The position numbers were made by a program, and so were the translations under genes. Shown in pieces: positions 6,260 to 57,532 of a stretch of 64,000 bases of DNA; the first letter of the stretch is position 1, and every line of letters starts with the position of its first letter. The notes beneath the pieces are model-generated. The model saw only the letters and a program-made list of their open reading frames with translations. It did not search any database and was not told the origin of the DNA. This stretch comes from Streptomyces sp. NBC_00236 (GTDB taxonomy: Bacteria; Actinomycetota; Actinomycetes; Streptomycetales; Streptomycetaceae): assembly GCF_036195045.1 (NCBI RefSeq), contig NZ_CP108100.1:3534001-3598000 (forward strand), written 5' to 3'.

Positions 6260-6425
6260 CTAGGGTCTCTCGTTCGGATCAGGGCGGGTCAGGGAGCGGG
6301 GTGTGGTGCGTGCAGCTGCAAGGCGGAGGACTGAGGCATGGCGGAGCCATGGTGATGGACGACAACGCCGCAGATGCGCGTGCCGGACCCCGCGAGCCCG
6401 GCCTGATCCGAACGAGAGGCCCTAG
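6260..6425. repeat. 166-bp inverted-repeat-flanked element, copy 1
   Basis: Terminal inverted repeats of 24 bp (6260-6283 and 6402-6425) match except at one position, which would be a G-U pair in RNA. CTAG stands at both outer ends. The interior holds AAGGCGGAGGA (6320-6330), a CATGGC-GGA-GCCATG hairpin and GACGACAACGCCG (6358-6370). All three motifs recur at the same offsets in the copy at 57167-57332, although the terminal repeats differ in sequence. The right end contains the TAG stop codon of the adjacent AsnC-type gene. It is non-coding as far as I can see and looks like a MITE or structured-RNA repeat. Confidence 0.8.
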
Positions 6426-11581: not shown

Positions 11582-11671
11582 CCCCGGACAGCCGCCGCAC
11601 GGTCACGGCCGGACAGACCTGTCCCCGGACAGCCGCCGCACGGTCACGGCCGGACAGACCTGTCCCCGGAC
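11582..11671. repeat. 41-bp tandem repeat, two full copies plus a partial one
   Basis: Units at 11582-11622 and 11623-11663 appear identical, and the first 8 bases of a third follow. Each unit holds GGACAG-AC-CTGTCC, a near-perfect dyad, so the array forms repeated hairpins. It lies about 100 bases upstream of the 11769 gene, in a region without coding signal. Confidence 0.75.
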
Positions 11672-47387: not shown

Positions 47388-47443
47388 GGTCCTGTCCGGC
47401 GTTCCAGCGCGGGAGAGGAAGCGGCGGAACTCCGGACAGGACC
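47388..47443. repeat. 56-bp inverted-repeat element, copy 3 (internally deleted)
   Basis: An 18-bp inverted repeat with one mismatch (GGTCCTGTCCGG-N-GTTCC and its complement) surrounds AGCGCGGGAGAGGAAGCGGC. The left half matches the left end of the 166-bp copy at 57167 (AGCGCGGGAGA and AGCGG shared), then the sequence jumps to the right end. A 10-bp direct repeat CGACAGGAAC stands on both sides (47364-47373 and 47443-47452). As a hairpin it may also affect expression of the downstream oxidoreductase. Confidence 0.7.
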
Positions 47444-55957: not shown

Positions 55958-57532
55958 ATGTGGCTGCCCACATCCGGGAAGCACCGCGACTTCATCGAGC
56001 GCTATCTGACGCTGCACGACCGGTACACCGCGGGTGAACTCGGCGAGGAGGAGTGGCGTACCTGGGCGCAGCGGCAGCTGCGCGCGGTCGTCGCGCTCGC
56101 GCAGGAGGGCTCGCCCTTCTACGCACGGCACCTGGCCGGCGTGCCGGCCGGCCGGCTCACCCTCGACGACGTGCGCTCGCTGCCCTTCACCACGAAGGAC
56201 CACCTGCGCACGGCCATGTCCGACGTCCTGAGCCGCGATCTCGACGAGGCCTGCTTCTTCTACGAGACCACCGGCACCACCGGACCGGCCACGCCCTGTC
56301 CCCGTGACCCGCGCGAGGTGATCGCCTCCAACGCCCATGTGACGGAGAGCTGGCGGAACATCTTCACGGACGTCTTCGGCGACCGGGCCCCGCGCGTCGG
56401 CGTGATGGGTCCCACCGAGGTGCACTCGCTCGGCGACACCCTGGGTGACGTGGCCCGTAACGTGGGTTCGGCCGTCGCCAAGATCTGGCCGTACTCCCCC
56501 GTCATCGGCTTCCCCAAGGCCCTTCAGCTGATGCGGGACCTGGCCCTGGACGTCGTGTTCTGCACACCGAACGTGGCGCTCTCGCTGGCGCGGGCCGCCC
56601 GTGAGCAGGGGCTCGACCCGCGCCGCGACTTCGCCGTGAAGGTCTTCCTGGTCACCGGGGAGATGTGCACCCCCGACCTGGCCCGCCAGATCGACCAGGC
56701 CTGGGGCGCGCGGACGTACAACGCGCTCTACGGCTCCCAGGAGACCCTGGTCATCGCCTCGGCCTGCGCACACGGCCGGCTCCACCTGGCCCGGCCCAAC
56801 TACATCGCCGAGCTCGTCGATCCGGACACCGGCGCCGCACTCGGCGACCGGGGTACCGGGGAGCTCGTCGTCACCATGCTGATCGACGGCATCAAGCCGC
56901 TGATCCGCTACCGGACCGGCGACCTGGTCGAGCTCTCCGACAACGTGTGCGGCTGCGGCATCCGGGGCCCCGTCATGCGGGTCGTCGGCCGCACCCGCGA
57001 CCGGATCGTGCTCGGCGGTCACAGCTTCCAGGCCTGGCAGATCGAGCAGGCCGTCCTGCGCCGGATCGACCACAGCTACGGCTACCAGGTCGTCATCGAC
57101 CGGGCCGAGGACGGCGAGGACCTGATCACCGTCCGGCTCGACCTGCCCGACGGGCGCGTGCAGGGGCCAGGTCCTGTACGGAGTTCCAGCGCGGGAGAAG
57201 GAGCGGTGTCCGGTGCCGTCGGATCCAAGGCGGAGGAGGGAGTGATGGCGGAGCCCTCGCGACTGACGACAACGCCGGAGGCGGCGGTGCCGGACGCCGT
57301 GACGCCGCGGGGGAACTCCGTACAGGGCCTGGAGGCCGCCCACGCGGCACGGGTCGCCGACGCGCTCGGGGTGCGCTGCCGGGTGGAGCTGCCGAGCGAA
57401 CTGGACCCGGTCACCACGACCGGCGCCTTCGTCAGCTGGAAGGCGGCGCGCATCCACGACCGGCGTGCGCCCATCGACCACGAGACGGCAGCCGCCCGCC
57501 GGCTCGCCGGGGCCCGGGGGCACCGCGCATGA
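55958..57532 (+). CDS. PaaK-like adenylate-forming ligase carrying an in-frame repeat insertion
   Basis: The 524-aa protein resembles the phenylacetate-CoA ligase / coenzyme F390 synthetase family: FYETTGTTGPATPCPRDP (ATP loop), YNALYGSQETLVIASAC, IRYRTGDLVELSDNVCGCG, and MRVVGRTRDRIVLGGHSF before the C-terminal domain. It activates an aryl or alkyl carboxylate as acyl-AMP or acyl-CoA, plausibly an aminobenzoate given the anthranilate-synthase genes. After DLPDGRVQG, about 54 residues of Ser/Ala/Glu-rich sequence are encoded by the 166-bp repeat (57167-57332), then the domain resumes at LEAAHAARVADALG. Whether the protein is still active is unclear. ATG 55958 follows GGGGGATCC. Confidence 0.83.
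   Translation: MWLPTSGKHRDFIERYLTLHDRYTAGELGEEEWRTWAQRQLRAVVALAQEGSPFYARHLAGVPAGRLTLDDVRSLPFTTKDHLRTAMSDVLSRDLDEACFFYETTGTTGPATPCPRDPREVIASNAHVTESWRNIFTDVFGDRAPRVGVMGPTEVHSLGDTLGDVARNVGSAVAKIWPYSPVIGFPKALQLMRDLALDVVFCTPNVALSLARAAREQGLDPRRDFAVKVFLVTGEMCTPDLARQIDQAWGARTYNALYGSQETLVIASACAHGRLHLARPNYIAELVDPDTGAALGDRGTGELVVTMLIDGIKPLIRYRTGDLVELSDNVCGCGIRGPVMRVVGRTRDRIVLGGHSFQAWQIEQAVLRRIDHSYGYQVVIDRAEDGEDLITVRLDLPDGRVQGPGPVRSSSAGEGAVSGAVGSKAEEGVMAEPSRLTTTPEAAVPDAVTPRGNSVQGLEAAHAARVADALGVRCRVELPSELDPVTTTGAFVSWKAARIHDRRAPIDHETAAARRLAGARGHRA
57167..57332. repeat. 166-bp inverted-repeat-flanked element, copy 2, inside the ligase gene
   Basis: Terminal inverted repeats of 21 bp (57167-57187 and 57312-57332) match except at one position, which would be a G-U pair in RNA. 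AAGGCGGAGGA (57227-57237), ATGGCGGAGCC and GACGACAACGCCG (57265-57277) occur at the same offsets as in the copy at 6260-6425, and both copies are exactly 166 bp. All three reading positions needed by the ligase frame are free of stops, and removing 162 bases would restore DGRVQG-LEAA. The terminal repeats differ from copy 1 in sequence yet remain paired. Confidence 0.82.

Follow-up and report, generated by a model that had tools for sequence, protein, structure and literature searches.

MITEs are short elements (about 50-600 bp) without a transposase gene, defined by terminal inverted repeats, dispersed copies, a target duplication and an autonomous partner. Among the systems closest to the repeat considered here, the Rickettsia palindromic elements (RPE), of about 150 bp, are described as inserting in frame into unrelated protein genes, where they encode peptides (PMC10969869). 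ERIC, RU-1 and RU-2 are MITE-like repeats with open frames, some of them fused to genes, 3' ends included, and in the fusion examples described the normal stop codon is removed and the protein ends within the repeat (PMC2759123). GTAG REP palindromes, which are only 20-40 bp long, often supply with their ends the TAG stop codon of flanking ORFs, and some lie within ORFs (PMC3733652). The preliminary description of the locus studied here had seen in a repeat that enters coding sequence without a frameshift an unusual way to lengthen proteins. Precedents exist in Rickettsia and in enterobacteria (PMC10969869, PMC2759123, PMC3733652), and the phenomenon is thus not unprecedented, because the Rickettsia elements insert in frame and the enterobacterial repeats fuse with genes. 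For Streptomyces, no description of this repeat was found in the literature as judged by titles and the openings of abstracts, and the main text of the MITE review (PMC10969869) contains neither 'streptomyces' nor 'actinobacter'.

The window analysed here, a stretch of 64,000 nucleotides from Streptomyces sp. NBC_00236, contains a gene for a PaaK-like ligase with an AMP-binding Pfam match (Table 1); PaaK, AjiA1 and NatL2 are among the best solved-structure matches to its product. The gene has 524 codons with the insert, compared with 469-476 in eight aligned orthologues, chosen as the strongest among many PaaK-like hits from searches of 150 and 392 genomes. About 54 repeat-derived codons without a stop had been proposed to separate DGRVQG from LEAAHAARVADALG, and this is borne out by the empty sites of relatives, relative to which the window gene has gained 162 nt, consisting of a flank dinucleotide CA and a 160-bp element; the frame is open across 57167-57332 and the 54 codons contain no stop. 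The coordinates first assigned to the repeat, 57167-57332, correspond to the full extent of the palindrome, within which the insertion itself occupies 57168-57329. The undisturbed site reads ...GGGAC/TGGAGG in G070 and ...GGGGC/TGGAGG in G313 (slash, point of insertion), two relatives whose ligases share 99% and 98% identity with the window protein, respectively; around the site the DNA of G070 is about 96% identical. The insert is also absent from the orthologue of G195 (83%) and from five more distant ones (44-59%). The comparison with orthologues suggested in the preliminary description therefore gives a uniform answer for this set: all eight lack the residues, and none carries them as ordinary protein sequence.

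Table 1. Features of the ligase gene and of the inserted element, in window positions.
Feature	Position	Strand	Basis
PaaK-like (ANL superfamily) ligase gene	55958..57532	+	orthologue starts and ends, AMP-binding Pfam match, structure matches
Inserted 162 nt, 54 codons in frame	57168..57329	+	empty site in G070 and G313
CA dinucleotide on the left flank (TA in most copies of G057)	57168..57169	.	
MITE proper, 160 bp (GGTCC...GGGCC)	57170..57329	+	unit common to 40/40 fetched G057 copies and two home copies
Left terminal inverted repeat GGTCCTGTACGGAGTTCC	57170..57187	+	inverted-repeat and copy comparison
Conserved core of the wider Streptomyces hairpin family (AAGGCGGAGGAGGGAG ... GCGGAGC ... 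GACGACAACGCCG)	57200..57309	+	alignment A3, covariation, genus-wide matches
In-frame ATG after purine-rich GGAGGAGGGAG stretch (57230-57247), candidate internal start	57245..57247	+	sequence
Right terminal inverted repeat (GGCCCTGTACGGAGTTCC on - strand)	57312..57329	-	inverted-repeat and copy comparison
Right flank dinucleotide TG, as in empty sites of G070 and G313	57330..57331	.	

The inserted element is 160 bp long with no transposase gene inside, bears terminal inverted repeats (17 of the first 20 bases of the two arms match in the window copy) and belongs to a set of dispersed copies with empty sites in relatives. It folds into a single hairpin of -120.1 kcal/mol (57165-57334; z = -10.6 against 200 shuffles). 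Within the ligase subfamily, as the copies sharing these terminal repeats are called here, both arms of one copy share the same variant (TACGG, TCCGG or TCTGG), a pattern that could stem either from selection on the folded form or from correction of one arm by the other. No Pfam family matches the inserted peptide above cut-off, and in an Rfam scan of 17 own-genome loci (E up to 1) the element itself had no match above gathering score; the four matches obtained, all to miRNA models and below gathering score, lie away from the element in L013. No phage record matched the element. The ligase copy is flanked by CA/TG and not by TA/TA, G070 and G313 having TG at the target. Another home site, L015, likewise has CA/TG flanks, with CA in G313 and a filled site in G070. 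At L015 and at the ligase (57168-57331), the two flank dinucleotides are reverse complements of each other. In G057, another Streptomyces, six of 40 copies depart from TA at one end, their elements being identical or nearly so. Non-TA flanks at one or both ends are in all seen at L015, L191, L219, L245, L246, L248, L249 and the ligase. A simple TA duplication followed by mutation accounts poorly for them.

In the genome of the window strain, copies were collected as the best 16 matches plus a short copy inside the window. They include two further near-full copies, more diverged, with 94% and 89% identity, and 13 places that match the core only (74-78%). The short copy, at window positions 47388-47443, is a 56-nt deletion derivative that keeps both terminal repeats, has lost the core and is apparently intergenic. 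The subfamily is far more abundant in G057, which holds at least 40 copies: 40 of 41 matches were fetched (loci L191-L249) and 40 of 187 candidates were scored. Thirty-nine of the 40 fetched copies are identical, and this burst of identical 160-bp copies marks a recently active MITE. Since one terminal motif occurs 48 + 53 = 101 times in that genome, it holds more copies than those fetched. The flanks there, read without an empty-site comparison, are TA on both sides in 34 of the 40 copies, mostly in a C-TA-G context. Beyond these genomes the subfamily looks rare, because the exact degenerate left-end pattern gave a single stretch, in Streptomyces sp. AW19M42, among 84,980 named species genomes, a collection from which the genome of the window strain is possibly absent and in which diverged copies would be missed by this pattern.

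The three near-full home copies all lie in frame within genes, namely the ligase, a GAF-domain protein and an oxidoreductase. In the GAF-domain protein the copy follows codon 6 in frame and is absent from the orthologue of G313, and in the Gfo/Idh/MocA-like oxidoreductase it lies in frame eight codons before the end, with a short remnant in G313. The AW19M42 copy sits in a TetR regulator, in the same frame as in the ligase and in a loop that is variable among orthologues; the frame runs to the end of the contig, which includes the left junction but not the right one. Entry into coding sequence without a frameshift, as first noted for the ligase, is thus seen in three other genes. A related copy on a plasmid of Streptomyces sp. 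NBC_00727 adjoins the stop codon of an amidase gene. Among six copies examined outside G057, four are in frame inside genes, one is on a stop codon and one, the T1-like copy in G147 (L088), was left outside the gene-context classes. All gene contexts were assigned by an own codon-usage score trained on the window and not by annotation, and the classes are approximate. In G057, by the same score, 25 of 40 copies are on stop codons, where TA and the first G of the element restore TAG, and none of the 40 is inside a gene, so the gene interior is the exception there and not the usual fate; several sites do have long open frames across them with weak coding scores, and interior cases are possible among these. 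At ten other nearby CTAG sites of G057, taken as a control, three are on stops, seven are elsewhere and none is interior. A transposase that targets stop codons was considered for this pattern and not retained, CTAG itself being rare near the G057 sites and the comparison of 25 of 40 with three of ten being suggestive only. Target scarcity accounts for much of the placement.

The likeness to RPE lies in in-frame insertion into unrelated genes, here for a ligase, a GAF protein, an oxidoreductase and a TetR regulator. It is a likeness of behaviour alone, across phyla. The elements described here form a subfamily of a wider family whose members have TA flanks and mostly occupy stop codons or positions outside genes. 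ERIC and RU repeats differ from the ligase element in length and hosts, and REPs differ in that the ligase element has 160 bp, long terminal repeats and TA flanks. With IS5-type MITEs the element shares terminal inverted repeats and the lack of a gene inside, and the TA on both sides of most G057 copies would fit their short target duplication. The ends of a sibling family (TTACGACCTCACCCGCGATTG) closely match one end of the DDE_Tnp_4 insertion sequences of G057, which we take to be of IS5 type, and match the other end less closely; no such end match was seen for the ligase subfamily itself. An autonomous element with the terminal repeats of the ligase subfamily was not found in a non-exhaustive look at seven isolated ends in this one genome, six of which have an imperfect second end 80-171 nt away and for one of which no partner was found; no transposase was evident on inspection of the frames near these ends.

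Sites elsewhere in the home genome show how much DNA each insertion adds. Thirteen other home sites were set against G070 and/or G313 (L006 and L016 left out). Ten are empty in at least one of these relatives, with a net insertion of 162 nt at six, 163 nt at two, 161 nt at one and 159 nt at one. At the remaining three the difference is 138, 105 and 78 nt, and a shortened derivative seems to be present in the relative. L010 measures 162 nt against G313 and 172 nt against G070, L009 has another repeat in G313, L005, L011 and L014 lack clean junctions, and the two 163-nt sites fit a 3-nt duplication (TTA/TTA; TAA/CAA). In the proposed mechanism, a non-autonomous, palindromic 160-bp MITE would have entered the ligase gene after the split from the two nearest sampled relatives, presumably mobilized in trans by an IS5-type DDE transposase. 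With TA on both sides in a C-TA-G context, each insertion would add 160 + 2 = 162 nt, a multiple of three. Within a gene, CTAG has just two possible readings, CTA-G and NCT-AG, C-TAG being a stop, and all four permitted frames (both phases, both strands) are open in each of the four distinct subfamily sequences tested. The frame is kept because the added length is 162 nt and because there is no stop in the four frames possible at CTAG.

That the repeat is foreign to the ligase and mobile is supported by these observations, and the explanation that in our view probably holds is that a MITE inserted in the ligase gene, kept the frame open and persists as a tolerated selfish passenger. The idea that the 54 residues belong to the ligase by origin and were lost from the relatives can draw on the open frame as its sole point, and it is extremely improbable given eight of eight orthologues without them, the occurrence of the same DNA as a dispersed palindrome elsewhere and the exact empty site in relatives. 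Misassembly was also considered and is unlikely, because the ligase copy is not identical to either of the other home copies and shows nine differences from the consensus of G057. More has to be said about the idea that selection keeps the subfamily translatable, preserving its length and its open frames because entry into genes in frame would be a cheap way to spread. The four open frames in all four sequences tested speak for such selection, as do the four of six copies outside G057 that are in frame inside genes and the finding that, among 22 comparable copies with other terminal repeats, not one is open in all four frames (boundaries were set by script for 48 copies; a terminal-repeat filter left 34, of which 22 were of frame-keeping length). 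Four open frames nevertheless arise in 15% and 18% of same-composition shuffles, which together with a one-in-three chance for the length makes the case a weak one; the length of 160 also occurs in families without open frames, and none of the 40 scored G057 copies is inside a gene. We regard selection for translatability as improbable, and the frame-keeping arithmetic is no proof of selection for an open frame. A length designed for frame keeping, considered as a separate proposal, is weakened by the 160-bp families that are not open and by the insertions of 163, 161 and 159 nt.

Whether the ligase is still functional is a closer question. In ANL enzymes the C-terminal subdomain moves in catalysis, and it is in this subdomain, between a strand and a helix, that the insertion would place a largely disordered loop of 54 residues rich in Ser, Ala, Glu and Pro. 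AlphaFold assigns residues 400-454 a pLDDT below 50 (the insert comprises residues 404-457), with the flanking strand (388-395) and helix (455-470) present in the model. Structure prediction with and without the loop had been suggested at the outset, and the model of the orthologue that lacks the insert has nearly the same order of elements. The predicted model suggests that the ligase most likely still folds with the loop disordered. These 54 largely unstructured residues in a moving subdomain, a lineage replacement (P>Q) that adjoins the insert and the strong mRNA hairpin would fit an inactivating insertion, in which case the open frame would be that of a young pseudogene. Set against this are the lack of any frameshift or stop, the position of the insert at a turn whose length varies among orthologues, the retention of the conserved C-terminal VSWKAAR segment, neighbouring DNA that aligns to G070 at about 96%, and silent and replacement changes on the lineage (13/4) that resemble those of the relatives (14/3 and 17/5). 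dN/dS is 0.086 and 0.099 against the two relatives and 0.085 between those two, a test that has low power because few changes have accumulated. On the sequence evidence we consider inactivation rather unlikely and lean towards a tolerated loop, by about two to one as a rough judgement that sequence alone cannot settle. The main effect could instead be exerted at the RNA level, through an internal translation start or as a polarity or stability element in the operon. The hairpin, with its z of -10.6, the conserved GGAGGAGGGAG with covarying stems and the in-frame ATG of the window copy, found in the G057 copies too, are compatible with this, but the ATG is missing from the other two home copies, and such a main effect seems doubtful. 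The ATG at 57245 is a speculative internal start, and the mRNA hairpin of -120 kcal/mol could lower ligase expression. As far as the sequence indicates, the insertion should most likely be read as a selfish passenger that is tolerated, and not as an adaptation.

The ligase subfamily possibly descends, as one of several derivatives, from a structured element found across the genus. For a home-type relative that shares the core but has other terminal repeats, 277 of 392 Streptomyces genomes contain matches (E up to 1e-6); when genomes were sampled across the order, 77 of 119 did, all in one of the five genera sampled; the share of the 119 that comes from the other four genera is not given. Alignment A3 of 33 copies, mostly 160 bp long with a conserved core and several unrelated-looking terminal repeats, supports one long hairpin, and at 43 of 57 predicted pairs, in terminal and inner stems, both bases have changed while at least one sequence preserves the pairing. 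These covarying stems may imply that the wider family functions as a folded nucleic acid. A copy of the family with other terminal repeats (GGGTCTCTCGTTCGG) lies in the window at 6263-6422, on the stop codon of a gene; its site is empty in G070 and holds a different palindromic repeat in G313. A related palindrome with a different core (GCAAGGCGCGGAAAGGG) adjoins a DDE_Tnp_4 match at about 1170-1280 of L114 (G313:C195). The window also contains, at 11582-11663, a perfect 41-bp tandem duplication.

It is possible, and is put forward here tentatively, that these copies represent a coding-compatible mobile hairpin subfamily that seeds translated, disordered loops of 54 residues into enzymes and regulators, which would be, to our knowledge, the first of its kind among high-GC actinomycetes, and one that may derive from the genus-wide structured element. 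The ligase provides a clean and datable case, with an empty site in a relative of about 96% DNA identity and with natural short and long forms of the enzyme. It is a case in which to ask whether selfish DNA lengthens a working enzyme, in an apparent biosynthetic cluster and with a function that can be measured. The parent repeat, with its matches in 277 of 392 Streptomyces genomes, is a candidate for a genus-wide structured mobile element, which annotation may translate or overlook.
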